Under the pieces are notes generated by a model that ran no database searches, was not told the origin of the DNA, and saw nothing but the letters and a program-made list of their open reading frames with translations. The position numbers and the translations under genes were made by a program. A stretch of DNA of 64,000 nucleotides from Subtercola lobariae. Its GTDB lineage: Bacteria > Actinomycetota > Actinomycetes > Actinomycetales > Microbacteriaceae. Below are positions 21,060 through 34,998 of the stretch, in pieces. The stretch is from NCBI RefSeq assembly GCF_014640255.1, contig NZ_BMGP01000007.1, forward strand, positions 1 to 64,000, written 5' to 3'. Every line of letters starts with the position of its first letter. Position 1 is the stretch's first letter.

Positions 21060-21126
21060 GAACGTGTCGATCGTGTAACGCGGCGCGAGCGGGGCCCTGG
21101 GTGTTCAGCGTGAGGTTCGCCGCGGC

Positions 21127-21238
21127 GGTGTGCGAGCGGGCTGAGGTCGCTCGACGGTGTGCTGGCGGCTGAGGTCGCGACGATGTGCCAGCGGCTGAGG
21201 TCGCTCGACGGTGTGCCAGCGGCTGAGGTCGCTGCGAC
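21127..21238 (+). repeat. Four tandem ~28-bp repeats
   Basis: Four imperfect units of about 28 bases share the core GTGTGCCAGCGGCTGAGGTC followed by GCTCGAC or a variant. They are noncoding and run directly into a palindromic element at 21223, whose left arm begins with the same TGAGGTCGCT sequence, so the array looks like partial duplication of that element. Confidence 0.7.
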
Positions 21239-21286
21239 AGTATGGAGGCCGCTACGCCGACCTCAGTTAGGGCGTAAGTGACTCAC
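21223..21286. repeat. 62-bp-type palindromic element, diverged copy
   Basis: Two arms of about 27-28 bases (starting TGAGGTCGCTGCG and ending GTAAGTGACTCAC) flank the 8-base loop GCTACGCC. The layout and arm sequence match the elements at 21420 and 32676, with more mismatches. Confidence 0.55.
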
Positions 21287-21419
21287 CGCGTCGGGGTCGG
21301 CGTCGGCAACGGCCTCGGCGTCCGCGCCCGCGCCCCCGCGCGCGCCGGTACGGTATCGGCCGGGTGCGCGGCGCGGGAGGGGTCAAACCACGCCCAAGGA
21401 CGTGGCTTCGAAGGGCCTA
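21287..21419. other. GC-rich intergenic sequence
   Basis: This stretch is extremely GC-rich with simple GCGTCGGC/CGCGCCC sequence and a small inverted repeat CCACG-N8-CGTGG near 21388. No gene, promoter or RNA was recognised. Confidence 0.4.
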
Positions 21420-21481
21420 GTGAGCCTGCTACGTCGTTTTGAGGCCGGTGCAATGGCCTCGAAACGACGTAATGGGCTCAC
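21420..21481. repeat. 62-bp palindromic element
   Basis: Two 27-base arms surround the loop GGTGCAAT. The left arm starts GTGAGCC, contains TACGTCGTTTTGAGGCC, and pairs with GGCCTCGAAACGACGTA followed by GGGCTCAC, with only a handful of mismatches. It lies 98 bases past the stop of moaE and could act as a terminator as well as being a dispersed repeat. Confidence 0.8.
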
Positions 21482-21512
21482 CCGAGGGTGTGGCCGCGAT
21501 TCTGCGGCGGCC

Positions 21513-21560
21513 ACTCGGACGCTCGGACGCTCGGCCGCTCGGGCGCTCGGCCGCTCGCCG
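21513..21560. repeat. Six tandem 8-bp units (GCTCGGNC)
   Basis: The octamer GCTCGGAC or close variants is repeated six times just beyond the 3' end of moaE. It is one of many short tandem arrays in the molybdenum cofactor block. Confidence 0.65.
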
Positions 21561-21578
21561 AACGGCGGGGCGCCGCGA

Positions 21579-22106
21579 TCAGCCCGCGCCGACCCATTCG
21601 GTGGTGCCGTCGGTGAACCACTGCTCTTTCCAGATCGGAACGCGCGACTTCACGGCATCGACGAGCTCGGCGCACGCGGCGAAGGCCTGAGCGCGGTGAG
21701 CGGATGCCACGGCGGCGGCCAGCGCGATGTCGCCCACGCCCAGCTCGCCGACCCGATGCGCCACCGCGATTCGAGTGCCGGGGTGCGCAGTTGCCACGTC
21801 GTCGGCGACCTGACGCATGACCTCGTCGGCGGTCGGATGCCCGGAATAACTCAAGCGCAGAACACCGCGCCCGTGGTCGTGGTTGCGCACCACTCCGCTG
21901 AACGTCACCACGGCGCCGGCTTCGTCTGAGCTGACGTTGTCGACGCACCACTCGACCGTGATGGGCTGGTCGCTCACGTACGCGAACGCAATCTCGGCGG
22001 GGGCGCTGGCGTCGTCGGCGTCGAAGTGCCCGACTATTCCCCGCAGAGTACCGGCGTCTTCTGACGCGGCGGCGTCGAGAGGTTCGTCAGCGGGCATGGT
22101 CTCCAC
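21579..22106 (-). CDS. moaE: Molybdopterin synthase catalytic subunit MoaE
   Basis: The 175-residue protein has the MoaE fold, with FSGVVRNHDHGR, YSGHPTADEVMRQ, AVAHRVGELGVGD and the diagnostic KSRVPIWKEQWF-DGTTEWVG end. With MoaD it adds the dithiolene sulfurs to precursor Z in molybdopterin synthesis. The N-terminal 35 residues or so are extra relative to the family core. Its start overlaps the mog/moaB gene by 20 bases, at the end of the moeA-moaC-mog-moaE run. Confidence 0.92.
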   Translation of the reverse strand: METMPADEPLDAAASEDAGTLRGIVGHFDADDASAPAEIAFAYVSDQPITVEWCVDNVSSDEAGAVVTFSGVVRNHDHGRGVLRLSYSGHPTADEVMRQVADDVATAHPGTRIAVAHRVGELGVGDIALAAAVASAHRAQAFAACAELVDAVKSRVPIWKEQWFTDGTTEWVGAG

Positions 22107-30637: not shown

Positions 30638-33600
30638 GTGTATTTGAAGAGCCTGACCCTCAAAGGGTTCAAATCGTTCGCGCAACCCACCACGTTCGCC
30701 TTCGAGACCGGCGTCACCTGCGTCATCGGCCCGAACGGCTCCGGAAAGAGCAACGTCGTCGACGCCCTCGCCTGGGTCATGGGCGAACAGGGCGTCAAGA
30801 CGCTCCGCGGCGGCAAGATGGAAGACGTCATCTTCGCCGGCACCTCCACTCGTGGTCCGCTCGGCCGGGCCGAGGTCATTCTGACCATCGACAACGCCGA
30901 CGGCGCGCTGCCGATCGACTACTCAGAGGTCACGATCAGCCGCACGCTCTTCCGCAACGGCGGCAGCGAATACGCGATCAATGGCGACTCGTGCCGGCTG
31001 CTCGACGTGCAGGAGCTGCTGAGCGACTCCGGCCTCGGGCGTGAAATGCACGTGATCGTCGGGCAGGGTCAGCTCGACGCGGTGCTGCACGCCAGCCCCG
31101 AGGGGCGTCGCGGTTTCATCGAAGAGGCGGCGGGCATCCTGAAGCATCGTCGCCGCAAAGAGAAGACGCAGCGCAAGCTCGAGGCCATGCAAGCGAACCT
31201 CACCAGGCTCAGCGACCTGGCAGGTGAGATCAGACGACAGCTGAAACCTCTCGGACGCCAGGCTGAGGTCGCCAAAGAGGCTCAAGGCATCGCCTCGATC
31301 GTGAGGGATGCCCGCGCCCGCCTGCTCGCCGACGAAGTCGTCACCCTGCGAGCCGCCCTCGACGCCCACAGCCACAGCGAGAGCGAACGCCGCACCGAGC
31401 GCATCGTTCTGCAAGAGCGCCTTGAACAGAATCAGCTGCGCATCACCCGCCTCGAGCAGCAGCAGGTGGGCGATGCCGTCGACCTCGCCCGGCGAACCGC
31501 CTTCGGGCTCGAATCCGTGCAAGAACGCCTGCGCGGACTTTTCACTCTCGCGAACCAGCGTCTCGCACTGCTGGGCTCAGAGCAGGGCGCCCACGATGTT
31601 TCGCCCAGCGTGACGCCCTCGATGGTTCAGGATGCCCGCGACGAAGCCACCCGGCTCGAAGCCGCCGTGGCAGCCGCTGAACAGAACTGGCGCGATGCCC
31701 AAGTCGGCACGCTCGCGGCCCGTTCCTCCCTCGATGCGGTCGACGAGCAGATCTCGGTGCAGAGCGCGCTCGTCTCGAAACACGACCTCGAACTCTCGAA
31801 GCTCGGTGGCCAGCTCGAGTCGGCGAACTCTCGCCTTGCCGCCGTGCGCGGTGAAGATTTGCGCCAGCAGAATGCGCTCGACGCCGCTGCCGAGCGGCGC
31901 GAACGCCTGCAGGCCGAGTTCGTCGCTCTCGAGGCCGAGGCCGCCTTCACCGATGCCGGCGAAACCGACCTCGACGAGGCCTACGAGTTCGCGCAGGCCG
32001 CGGTGTTCGAGGCCGAGGCCGAGATCGAGCAGCTTCGGGATGCCCTGCACACCCACGAGCGCGAACGCGACGCCCTCGCCGGTAAGACCGCGGCCCTCTC
32101 GATGGCGCTCGGCCAGAAAGACGGCTCGAGTGAGCTCGCCGCCGCCGGAGTCTCTGGCGTGCTCGGCCTCCTCGCCGACCACGTGCAGGTCGAACCCGGG
32201 TTCGAGGGCGCCATCGCCGCCGCCCTCGGCTCCCTCGCCGACGCCGTTCTCGCCGAGACTCCCGCCGCGGCCTTCGCTGCGCTCGCGGCCGCCCGCGCCT
32301 CCGACATGGGCCGCGTTGAGGTAGTAGTGGCCATCTCCGCCCCCTTCGCCCCCGCCACTCGCGCGTTGTCAGCCCGCGGCTCGGCCGCCACCTCCGCTGA
32401 CATTTCGGCGAGAGAAGCCGTTTCAGACGAGAGCGGCCGTTCCGCTGGCGTCTCTCGTCTGAACCAGACGCTCTCGTCGGCCGAGGGCGGCACTCTGGGG
32501 CTGGTGCGCGCGGTGGATGTGGTGACGGCACCCGAGGGCGTAAAGGCGCTGCTCGCGAACACCCTGATCGCCGATGACCTCGATGCGGCCCGAGCGGCGT
32601 GGCCGAGCATCCACGCCGCCGCTGCAGCTGGCACCGCCGCAGCCAGCGCCGACCCCGAAGCCGCTGACCGCGCTCGTGAGGCCGTTACGCCGAATAGAGA
32701 CCGCTCTGCCGGCCTCAATTCGACGCAACAGGCTCACTCAGCCGAAAGTAGTCGGAACGGCGAGGGGTTCGGCGGCGACTCCGACGGCGCGAGCGACCCG
32801 CGTTCGGCGGGCGACCTGAACGGTGCGAGCGACCCTGGTTCGGCGGGTGACCTGAACGGGCCGAGCGACCCTGGTTCGGCGGGCGACCTGAATGGCGCGA
32901 GGGCGCCGCGTTCGGCGGGCAGCGGCTCTGGCCCGCTCACCATCATCACGCAGGGCGGCGACGTGCTCACCGAGTACGTGCTGCGCGGCGGCTCCGGCGC
33001 CAAGCGCAGCAGGCTCGAGCTCGTGGCCGAGCGCGACGCGGCGGCAGACCGCCTCGAGGTGGTCACTGCCGACATCGACCGCGCCAAATTCGCCCTCGCT
33101 GAGCAGCGCGGCATTCTGCAGAACGCAAAACAGCAGTCGACCACCGCGCTCGCCGCGTTGCGCGAGTTCGATTCGCGCCTCGCCGCCCAGACCGAGCGCC
33201 TCTCGCGCCTGCGCGCCCAGGTCGACGCGAGCCAAGGCGAGTACGAACGCCTCGAGCGCAGTCGTGGGCTCGCCGCCGAAACCGTCGCGGGTGCCGTGAT
33301 GAACGCCGAGAAGGCCCGCGCCGAACTCGAATCCGCCCGAGCACGCCCCCGCCCGATTCTCGACGTCAGTTCGCGCGACGACCTCTTCGCCGCCGTGGAA
33401 CGCGGCCGCGAGAGCGAAATCGAGGCGCGCCTGCAGCTCGAAACCGTTCGCGAGCGCGTCAGGGCCGAACGGGCACGCGTCGTCGACCTCGAGCGCCAGC
33501 TCGACGCCGAACGCGCCGCCGCCGAAGAAGCCGCCCGTCGTGCGGTGATTCGCCGCAGGCAAGTGGATGCAGCCACCTCCGTCGTCGAAGCCCTTCCCGA

Positions 33601-34681
33601 GGTGCTGCACTCGGTCGACGAGGCGGTCGCCGAAGCGCGGCTCGACCTCGGCAAGCGTGAATCCGAGCGTGCAGAACAGAACGCCGAGCTGACCGAGCTG
33701 CGCCGCGAAGAATCCGGTCTGCGCGAGCGCTTGCAAGGCATCACCGAGAACGTGCACGGACTCGAGCTGCAGATCTACGAGAAGAAGCTGCACCTCTCGA
33801 GCGTGCTCGAGCGCGTCGGCTCCGAACTCGGTCTGATCGAAGACGACCTCGTGGCCGAATACGGGCCCGACCAGCGCATTCCGCTCGACGCCTCGTCGCG
33901 GCCGGCGCGCGGTAGCGCGCGTGCATTGACCTCGCCCTCGAACGGTGCACCTGCTGACGCCAGCGCGAGCAACGACGCCAGCGAGAACGATGACACTGAC
34001 ACTGACACCGAGACCGTTGCCTTCGACCGTGACGAGCAGAAGCGGCGGCTTGCCAAGGCTGAGCGGATGCTCGCGGAGCTCGGTCGCGTGAATCCACTCG
34101 CTCTCGAAGAATTCGATGCGCTCGAGCAGCGGCACAAGTTCTTGACCGAACAGCTCACCGACCTCACGAACACCCGCAAAGACCTGCTGACGATCATCGA
34201 CGAGATCGACGACAAGATGAAGTTCATCTTCGAAAGCGCCTTCAACGACACCCGTGACGCGTTCGCCGATGTGTTTCCCATTCTCTTTCCGGGCGGCACG
34301 GGCAGCATCTCGCTCACCAACCCCGACGATCTGCTCACCACCGGAGTCGAGGTGAGTGTGAAGCCGGCCGGCAAGAAGATCGAGCGGCTTTCGCTGCTCT
34401 CGGGCGGCGAGCGGTCACTTGCCGCTGTCGCCCTGCTCATCGCGATCTTCAAGGCGCGCCCCAGCCCGTTCTACATCATGGATGAGGTCGAGGCGGCCCT
34501 CGACGACGCGAACCTGGGGCGGTTGCTCACGATCTTCCGCGACCTGCGTGAGACCTCGCAGCTCATCGTCATCACGCACCAAAAGCGCACCATGGAGATC
34601 GCTGACGCGCTCTACGGGGTGTCGATGCGGCAAGACGGCGTTTCGGCGGTCATCGGCCAGCGCGTGGAGGTTGCTTCGTGA
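30638..34681 (+). CDS. smc: Chromosome segregation protein SMC
   Basis: The 1347-residue ATPase compacts and segregates chromosomes with ScpA/ScpB. Walker A GPNGSGKSNVVDAL is near residue 32, long coiled coils surround a central hinge, and LSGGERSLAAVALL (near 1250) and Walker B YIMDEVEAALDDAN (near 1280) complete the head. It is over 100 residues longer than typical bacterial SMC. The excess lies in the hinge region (about 575-765): two palindromic elements and three 12-residue repeats (GASDPGSAGDLN) are read in frame before the hinge resumes with ITQGGDVLTEYVLRGG. The start is GTG at 30638 with AGAAAGGG upstream. Confidence 0.96.
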   Translation: MYLKSLTLKGFKSFAQPTTFAFETGVTCVIGPNGSGKSNVVDALAWVMGEQGVKTLRGGKMEDVIFAGTSTRGPLGRAEVILTIDNADGALPIDYSEVTISRTLFRNGGSEYAINGDSCRLLDVQELLSDSGLGREMHVIVGQGQLDAVLHASPEGRRGFIEEAAGILKHRRRKEKTQRKLEAMQANLTRLSDLAGEIRRQLKPLGRQAEVAKEAQGIASIVRDARARLLADEVVTLRAALDAHSHSESERRTERIVLQERLEQNQLRITRLEQQQVGDAVDLARRTAFGLESVQERLRGLFTLANQRLALLGSEQGAHDVSPSVTPSMVQDARDEATRLEAAVAAAEQNWRDAQVGTLAARSSLDAVDEQISVQSALVSKHDLELSKLGGQLESANSRLAAVRGEDLRQQNALDAAAERRERLQAEFVALEAEAAFTDAGETDLDEAYEFAQAAVFEAEAEIEQLRDALHTHERERDALAGKTAALSMALGQKDGSSELAAAGVSGVLGLLADHVQVEPGFEGAIAAALGSLADAVLAETPAAAFAALAAARASDMGRVEVVVAISAPFAPATRALSARGSAATSADISAREAVSDESGRSAGVSRLNQTLSSAEGGTLGLVRAVDVVTAPEGVKALLANTLIADDLDAARAAWPSIHAAAAAGTAAASADPEAADRAREAVTPNRDRSAGLNSTQQAHSAESSRNGEGFGGDSDGASDPRSAGDLNGASDPGSAGDLNGPSDPGSAGDLNGARAPRSAGSGSGPLTIITQGGDVLTEYVLRGGSGAKRSRLELVAERDAAADRLEVVTADIDRAKFALAEQRGILQNAKQQSTTALAALREFDSRLAAQTERLSRLRAQVDASQGEYERLERSRGLAAETVAGAVMNAEKARAELESARARPRPILDVSSRDDLFAAVERGRESEIEARLQLETVRERVRAERARVVDLERQLDAERAAAEEAARRAVIRRRQVDAATSVVEALPEVLHSVDEAVAEARLDLGKRESERAEQNAELTELRREESGLRERLQGITENVHGLELQIYEKKLHLSSVLERVGSELGLIEDDLVAEYGPDQRIPLDASSRPARGSARALTSPSNGAPADASASNDASENDDTDTDTETVAFDRDEQKRRLAKAERMLAELGRVNPLALEEFDALEQRHKFLTEQLTDLTNTRKDLLTIIDEIDDKMKFIFESAFNDTRDAFADVFPILFPGGTGSISLTNPDDLLTTGVEVSVKPAGKKIERLSLLSGGERSLAAVALLIAIFKARPSPFYIMDEVEAALDDANLGRLLTIFRDLRETSQLIVITHQKRTMEIADALYGVSMRQDGVSAVIGQRVEVAS
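32422..32463. repeat. Palindrome within smc
   Basis: TTCAGACGAGAG and CTCTCGTCTGAA are perfect 12-bp complements separated by 18 bases, inside codons 595-609 of smc. Such symmetry is not expected in coding sequence. The encoded AREAVS-RSAG segment resembles that of the palindrome at 32676. Confidence 0.8.
32676..32737. repeat. 62-bp palindromic element inside smc
   Basis: Two 27-base arms, beginning GTGAGGCCGTTACGCCGAAT and ending ATTCGACGCAACAGGCTCAC, flank the 8-base loop GCTCTGCC. Six of 27 arm pairs mismatch. Architecture and arm sequence match the noncoding element at 21420. It is read in frame as codons 680-700 of smc, within the hinge region. Confidence 0.85.
32786..32920 (+). repeat. 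36-bp tandem repeat within smc
   Basis: Three 36-bp units starting at 32786, 32822 and 32858, plus a partial fourth, encode G-(A/P)-S-D-P-(R/G)-SAGDLN. They start about 50 bases after the 62-bp element and belong to the same hinge insertion. Confidence 0.88.
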
Positions 34682-34998
34682 TGCGGCTAACGAGCATCCA
34701 TCAGCCCGACGGCAGCCAGCCCGACGGCAGCCAGCCCGACGGCAGCCAGCCCGACGGCAGCCAGCCCGACGGCAGCCAGCCCGACGGCAGCCAGCCCGAC
34801 GGCAGCCAGCCCGACGGCAGCCAGCCCGACGGCAGCCAGCCCGACGGCAGCCAGCCCGACGGCAGCCAGCCCGACGGCAGCCAGCCCGACGGCAGCCAGC
34901 CCGACGGCAGCCAGCCCGACGGCAGCCAACCTGCCGGCACCCAGCCCGCGAACCCCCAGCCCGCCAACCGCCAGCCCGACAGCGAAAGCGAGCGCTGA
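34681..34998 (+). CDS. QPDGS pentapeptide-repeat ORF between smc and PEBP gene
   Basis: This 105-residue ORF consists of a short leader, 15 perfect Gln-Pro-Asp-Gly-Ser repeats, four degenerate QP repeats and a charged end. Its ATG shares a base with the smc stop and its stop overlaps the next gene's ATG (TGATG), so ribosomes could pass from smc through it to the PEBP gene. No family is recognised. The repeat is open in other frames too, so coding status rests on the coupled start and stop. It may be a disordered peptide or simply a translated spacer. Confidence 0.5.
   Translation: MRLTSIHQPDGSQPDGSQPDGSQPDGSQPDGSQPDGSQPDGSQPDGSQPDGSQPDGSQPDGSQPDGSQPDGSQPDGSQPDGSQPAGTQPANPQPANRQPDSESER
34702..34926 (+). 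repeat. Fifteen perfect 15-bp tandem repeats
   Basis: The unit CAGCCCGACGGCAGC is repeated 15 times without a single difference, followed by degenerate units. Complete identity indicates very recent expansion or active homogenisation. The 15-bp period keeps the frame of the overlying ORF. Confidence 0.97.

Follow-up and report, generated by a model that had tools for sequence, protein, structure and literature searches.

Scattered four-box palindromes and a palindrome-bracketed AbiEi-like gene in Subtercola and other actinobacteria

REPs are the classic scattered palindromes of bacteria, and RAYTs are their described protein partners. RAYTs have been proposed for gammaproteobacteria, short palindromes are scattered between genes and flank the RAYT gene on both sides, and one end of a REP is marked by a GTAG or CGTC tag (PMC3733652). 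AbiEi, the antitoxin of a type IV toxin–antitoxin system, is reported to bind, within its own promoter, an inverted repeat of the form 23-N3-23 (PMC3985639), and the Rickettsia palindromic elements measure ~150 bp and reside in frame inside genes (PMC10969869). MITEs are likewise short and non-coding, with sharp ends and many copies.

The palindromes analyzed here were found in a window, the whole 64,000-nucleotide stretch of Subtercola lobariae DNA, and form two families accompanied by a gene that carries them on both sides. As in REP/RAYT systems, short palindromes are scattered between genes (52 of 56 family-1 places are intergenic with called neighbors) and a gene is flanked on both sides, but no Y1 transposase was found, the protein is AbiEi/DUF559-like and the elements are 62–68 bp long with four boxes. 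The protein shares with AbiEi an AbiEi-like N-terminus and a long inverted repeat upstream of its gene; here, however, a second palindrome lies behind the gene, copies are scattered and the C-terminus is nuclease-like. Palindromes in frame inside genes recall Rickettsia, but at 62–68 bp they are shorter and only 2 of 56 family-1 places are within genes, both in frame; a Rickettsia-type reading as their main nature was rejected because few copies are intragenic. In contrast to MITEs, each element consists entirely of a single palindrome, target-site duplications were not detected and the gene is not a known transposase (the transposase search covered Y1, PF01797). Since the defining RAYT feature was searched for and not found, and the arrangement agrees with none of the other known kinds, we regard the pairing of repeat and protein as not of a known kind; the scattered palindromes alone would be REP-like. 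No account of palindromes bracketing an AbiEi/DUF559 gene was found in open full-text papers, subscription papers mostly and bioRxiv preprints being outside the scope of this search.

Two palindrome families and their anatomy

The elements of the window are as follows.

21420..21481, no strand: copy A, a 62-bp member of family 1 with boxes of the TGAGCCTG/TGAGGCCG type (74.5 bits)
21223..21286, no strand: copy B, reads as a degenerate family-1 element (18.8 bits; E 0.005 over the 64 kb)
32676..32737, no strand: copy C, family 1, in frame within smc (71.8 bits)
32410..32475, no strand: sister-family (family 2) element, in frame within smc at a different loop of the protein from copy C (66.2 bits)
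30638..34681, + strand: smc ORF holding both in-frame palindromes (Pfam SMC_hinge match, residues 506-653)

The original prediction described a hairpin at 21420-21481 with 27-base arms and an 8-base loop, related to two further copies and thereby suggesting a genome-wide family. The sequence at this place reads as described. The 27-8-27 architecture designates the same hairpin with the pair 28/35 (G-T here) left unpaired; in the frame of the family, 28 positions pair around a loop of 6 bases. Kinship is clear for copy C and weak for copy B, which reads as a degenerate copy. These scores derive from a covariance model built from 19 family-1 copies, and those of A and C are inflated as both belong to its training set, B being outside it. 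Within the window, a pattern derived from the arm sequence that the copies have in common is matched by A and C alone, and two matches were reached in 0/100 shuffles. The family-2 element at 32410-32475 was missing from the earlier listing. Copy A lies between tandem minus-strand genes, 97 bp past the 3' end of a moaE-like gene (21579-22106), and copy B shares its intergenic region. In the stretch 21060-21578 of the window, beside this moaE-like gene, family 1 is present in S. lobariae (hereafter G000), and family 2 occupies the same spot in G005 and G009 (comparison places L083:787-852 and L081:12329-12394).

Far from being limited to the window's three copies, family 1 occupies 55 places in G000 (4.09 Mb, 22 contigs, 98.67% complete) in addition to the weak copy B, with 111 strand matches to the 19-copy model, a count that may be too low given that 150 of 2,327 candidates were scored. 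A systematic 400-kb sample of this genome contained seven copies, all seven already among the listed places. The palindromic family is indeed genome-wide, and 8 of 11 congeners also have matches. A palindrome scan of 464 kb returned 16 matches (six of family 1, one of the sister family and nine others) and none on one Markov-shuffled control of the same scan.

Family-1 elements have sharp boundaries. Across 50 gap-free copies, conservation stops at positions 1 and 62, the ends being GTGAG...CTCAC with little conservation outside them. Pairing is maintained through compensating changes: 82 cells are changed on both sides versus 52.1 (sd 5.4) after shuffling, and the covariation score is 0.171 versus 0.113, both reached in 0/500 shuffles, while the number of pairs bearing a two-sided change shows no excess (14 versus 13.4). 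Each arm contains a box, most commonly TGAGCCCG, twice and 19 bp apart; with one box twice per arm, every element has four boxes in a box-spacer-box-loop-box'-spacer-box' layout. Outer and inner boxes of the left arm agree at 322 of 400 positions versus 313.8 when shuffled (sd 4.2, p 0.04). The closest dispersed pair in G000 is identical at just 54/62 positions, and family 1 has therefore undergone no recent burst in this genome.

The core of family 2 measures 66 bp, or 68 if an outer C-G pair is counted, and follows the same four-box plan with different boxes, which an ad hoc rule assigns to the subtypes 2a (GAGAGCGA) and 2b (GAGAGAAG). Here, outer and inner left-arm boxes agree at 353 of 424 positions versus 304.6 when shuffled (sd 9.2, 0/1000), in 53 aligned copies that include one place twice (L127 = L297). 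Strand matches number 56 in G000, at least 150 in G009, 91 in G005, 72 in G002, 47 in G011, 16 in G007, 10 in G010, 8 in G008 and 2 in G001, and 0 in G003, G004 and G006. Two family-2 copies, L293 (G009) and L315 (G005), occupy one shared place between two conserved genes, presumably encoding a DNA polymerase delta-subunit-like and an S20-like protein; some copies have thus been kept across species.

Outside the genus, family-1 matches were found in 2 of 48 genomes, and a family-wide sample, with 18 candidates scored per genome, yielded matches in at least 21 of 299 genomes and at least 13 of 85 genera. In a species collection from which records near the window may be absent, the only record with the strict arm pattern is a Subtercola metagenome-assembled genome. 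This strict family-1 pattern was not found in viral contigs, nor the palindromic element in phages and plasmids. The box variant TGAGAC occurs in the gene flanks of G007 and in the few scattered copies inspected in G007, G008 and G003, while G000 has mostly TGAGCC. Another palindrome type, GTCGAGTAG...CTACTCGAC, is present in other Microbacteriaceae (L327:1406-1477, L327:1496-1567 and L328:1501-1560), where we assume it to be common.

Gene ends, in-frame copies and the search for a mobilizer

Using gene calls from a simple codon model made for this analysis, the 56 family-1 places were divided into 27 between tandem genes, 20 convergent, 5 divergent, 2 within genes and 2 unclassified. The copies are concentrated behind genes: among 52 intergenic copies, a few of which form tandem clusters and are hence non-independent, 30 lie within 100 bp past a gene end versus 10.2 expected from random intergenic placement, 16 lie within 30 bp (4.2 expected) and 5 are in divergent intervals (16.0 expected). 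In five copies, the TGA of the element itself is the called stop codon. Family 2 behaves similarly: 38 of 47 copies are within 100 bp past a gene end, or 37 of 46 once the duplicate is removed. The null, 19%, was derived from G000, although the copies were drawn from four genomes; for G009 alone the figure is 15 of 21. Promoter avoidance was considered as the cause of this 3' bias and rejected, the null not being raised when placements near 5' ends were excluded. Canonical terminators were rejected as well: across 90 gene ends in sense orientation, one place being entered twice, the element is never followed by a run of T.

Within smc, the first palindrome (32410-32475) is inside the SMC_hinge match and the second (32676-32737) just past it, both being placed in loops of the hinge region. 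The first site is occupied by family 2 in G000, G009 and, weakly, G005 (30.5 bits), and by family 1 in G002, G004 and G006; the second carries family 1 in G000, G002, G004, G005 and G006. Neither site has a match in G001, G003, G007, G008, G010 and G011; smc of G001 contains one weak family-2 match (25.6 bits) at a different position. A further in-frame family-1 copy, L118:2997-3058 (G000 C7:125696-125757), is located in an ABC protein, in the linker that joins its two ATPase regions. The reading frame of this copy is identical to that of the smc copy, of which it is the nearest dispersed relative (54/62). Two short tandem repeats were also observed in this part of the window, one immediately after copy C inside smc (~32800-32900, ..SAGDLNGASDPG..) and the other at ~34690-34950, read as (DGSQP)n in ORF 34678-34998 adjoining smc.

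As a mobilizing agent, the original prediction had offered a RAYT-like or other enzyme encoded elsewhere. A RAYT finds no support: a search of the 98.67% complete genome for Y1_Tnp (PF01797) gave nothing at E <= 1, while 10 of 14 control genomes match. For another enzyme, there is a strong candidate in the palindrome-flanked AbiEi-like gene described below. The family-1 elements do not bear a GTAG or CGTC end tag, and BLAST among neighboring genes returned common families and orthologues but no mobilizer. Target-site duplications were not detected, flanking k-mer identity in 54 copies being at or below the shuffled level for k 1-9. Clean empty sites or insertion events were not resolved in congeners, whose intergenic stretches align poorly at this divergence; one comparison opposes 25 bp in G002 to 88 bp with a family-2 copy in G000.

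An AbiEi-like gene bracketed by palindromes

What led to the bracketed gene was a conserved stretch separating two copies of family 1. In G000, a family-1 pair adjoins tuf (C2:414082 and 415258, 1.2 kb apart) with one gene between, the stop codon of which is inside the end of one flanking palindrome. This tuf-linked gene has family-1 palindromes on both sides in G000 (51.3 and 45.9 bits), G005, G006 and G007 and, weakly, in G009 (13.7 and 13.7 bits). It is present in G008, with flanks devoid of scoring palindromes, and in G010, where the flanks bear a weak resemblance to family 2 (23.4 and 13.4 bits). G004 lacks the gene at tuf, where two weak palindromes (14.3 and 21.6 bits) start 177 bp apart, despite its scattered copies, and the bracketed gene was not found in the 86% complete genome of G002, which has many copies.

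Another paralogue, which is syntenic, has family-2 palindromes on either side in G000 (42.7 and 33.7 bits), G009 (68.3 and 39.3 bits) and G005 (33.0 and 17.8 bits). By the ad hoc subtype rule, its flank boxes are 2a in G000 and G009 and 2b in G005, where one side is weak (17.8 bits); yet in G000 subtype 2b accounts for 10 of the 15 copies sampled, and in G005 subtype 2a accounts for 7 of 8. In G009, the 5' palindrome of the gene and one scattered copy are equal at 62 of 66 bases, a joint closest pair among 23 copies, which may be one pointer to spread from the gene.

The N-terminal half of the protein matches AbiEi in PADLOC (4.5e-13). Among 36 homologues, Pfam AbiEi_4 is matched by 16 (best 1.3e-5) and AbiEi_1 by 8, the AbiEi_1 match of the first member being under Pfam's cut-off. 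In the C-terminal half, E184, E227, D229 and K233 are invariant in these 36 homologues and D216 is present in 35, a pattern that we take to be that of a DUF559/Vsr-like PD-(D/E)XK nuclease; Pfam DUF559 itself gives weak matches in 4 of 36 (best E 0.043). No sequence-close solved structure was found in the PDB, and no match in NCBIfam. A class-wide search retrieved the gene in 144 of 197 genomes at E <= 1e-15; it counted four matches in G000, two of which were located. Three plasmid records match the protein, annotated as hypothetical protein (two) or AbiEi-family antitoxin (one), and it was found neither in phages nor in viral contigs.

Bracketing extends beyond Subtercola. Homologues were searched in 18 genomes, 15 of them from other genera with family-1-like matches (15 of 16, G145 being left out), and were found in 14. 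This first set comprises 41 distinct loci, restricted to places with a returned locus, of which 16 are from Subtercola and partly orthologous. Palindromes scoring at least 9 are present on both sides of 19 of the 41 loci versus 2.3% of 217 control genes; at two of these 19 (L232 and L235), the upstream palindrome is the hairpin behind tuf and not an element. The two flanks of one locus resemble each other, with a mean similarity of 23.7 versus 8.6 when shuffled (maximum of 500 shuffles, 16.5). A second set of 29 loci besides those of G000, the best-scoring ones of the class-wide search, was chosen without regard to palindromes, five being from the same family. A 5' palindrome is present at 21 of these loci, a 3' palindrome at 13 and both at 11, and within-locus similarity reaches 35.9 versus 10.5 (sd 2.9, maximum 20.5). 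Flank pairs that match (similarity of at least 15) occur at 15 of the 41 loci of the first set versus 0/483 controls and at 13 of the 29 loci of the second versus 0/283, in total 28 of 70 loci versus 0 of 766 control window pairs; these windows, of equal size and spacing, were shifted within the same loci and overlap, making them non-independent. A matching pair is absent at 42 of the 70 loci.

The flank boxes vary from locus to locus, and the 19-bp box period recurs: of the 29 long palindromes taken from flanks that match each other, 18 contain a direct repeat within the arm versus 2.9 expected, with an offset of 19 in 17 of them and 18 in one. The 5' palindrome is mostly 180-310 bp ahead of the start of the protein domain. 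Scattered copies mostly resemble the gene flanks of their own genome. When 18 copies from ten genomes were compared with gene flanks, their own genome ranked first of 18 for 13, namely four of five copies from G310, four from G070, two from G140 (one narrowly) and those of G321, G308 and G017. The remaining G310 copy ranked its own genome second, and the copies of G216, G143, G302 and G032 did not match their own gene flanks; eleven copies (seven from G087 and four from G156), for which flank palindromes are not known, were left out of this comparison.

Possible roles: recognition sites, offspring or terminators

The reading that we favor, and consider probable, is a REP/RAYT-like arrangement operating with an unrelated protein, in which the hairpins would be recognition sites, and probably non-autonomous offspring, of a palindrome–gene–palindrome unit. 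The AbiEi-like half would read the boxes, four per element and two per arm, 19 bp apart, so that the protein would bind a box-matched palindrome, perhaps as an extruded cruciform or an exposed single strand. The nuclease-like half may then nick or cut at the palindrome, and repair would copy it elsewhere. Surviving copies would be mainly those just past stop codons and, rarely, those in frame in flexible protein loops, solo palindromes being by-products lodging behind genes. Box and protein would change together; paralogues have different boxes on their flanks. The families, their four-box layout, the two-sided bracketing, the agreement of both flanks at a locus and, in most cases compared, the resemblance between scattered copies and the flanks in their own genome are observations, whereas binding, nuclease activity and dispersal by this protein are inferred. 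Against this reading stand the mismatch of subtypes between gene flanks and copies in G000 and G005, the copies in G002 and G004 that lack a gene found in the genome or, for G004, at tuf, the G008 gene with its non-scoring flanks, the scattered copies of G216, G143, G302 and G032 that differ from their gene flanks, the 42 of 70 loci with unmatched flanks, the weak DUF559 matches, and the negative results for target-site duplications, a clean insertion event and a recent family-1 burst in G000.

A possible, though less probable, alternative is that the palindromes serve solely for binding: through the 5' copy, the AbiEi-like protein would repress its own promoter, as is known for AbiEi, and the other copies, spread by ordinary recombination and selection and not by the protein, would act at the 3' ends of genes, for example as a bound roadblock against read-through. 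In its favor are the promoter repeat bound by AbiEi (PMC3985639), the 180-310 bp spacing of most 5' palindromes, the concentration of copies within 100 bp behind genes and the copies found at an equal place in two species. Mere binding, however, does not need nuclease-like residues that are invariant in 36 of 36 homologues (35 for D216), and by itself it leaves dozens of copies, among them those in frame in smc, as well as the presence of the operator's sequence at the gene's own 3' end, without explanation. The same concentration behind gene ends (30 of 52 family-1 copies versus 10.2), the strength of the hairpins and the compensating changes in their stems would also suit bidirectional terminators or stabilizers of mRNA 3' ends, RNA hairpins requiring no protein partner. 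This reading is improbable considering the missing T runs (0 of 90 gene ends in sense orientation, with one place entered twice), the two palindromes within the smc frame and the palindrome that precedes the bracketed gene and matches the one behind it, which it does not explain. As for classical REPs moved by a RAYT, a Y1 tyrosine transposase encoded elsewhere in the genome, scattered palindromes and a gene between two of them do reproduce the RAYT arrangement, but with PF01797 absent from G000 at E <= 1, found in control genomes, and an AbiEi/DUF559-like protein encoded by the bracketed gene, it is most improbable.

Returning to recognition sites and offspring of the bracketed gene, even if dispersal by the protein proved wrong, the palindromes would most likely still be its binding sites. 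Whether the arrangement amounts to a class-wide actinobacterial system seems to us evenly balanced; such a system would combine an AbiEi-type DNA-binding protein joined to a PD-(D/E)XK-like nuclease, its own four-box palindrome on both sides of the gene and solo chromosomal copies, with a specificity changing together with the protein, and would be a second and independent invention of the REP/RAYT kind. The pairing described here offers a different protein partner, encoded by a common gene, for scattered palindromes in actinobacteria. If true, palindromes in such genomes would become readable as protein-specific sites, pairs of paralogues and palindromes would represent natural swaps of specificity, and AbiEi-like genes would gain a possible role beyond toxin–antitoxin pairs.
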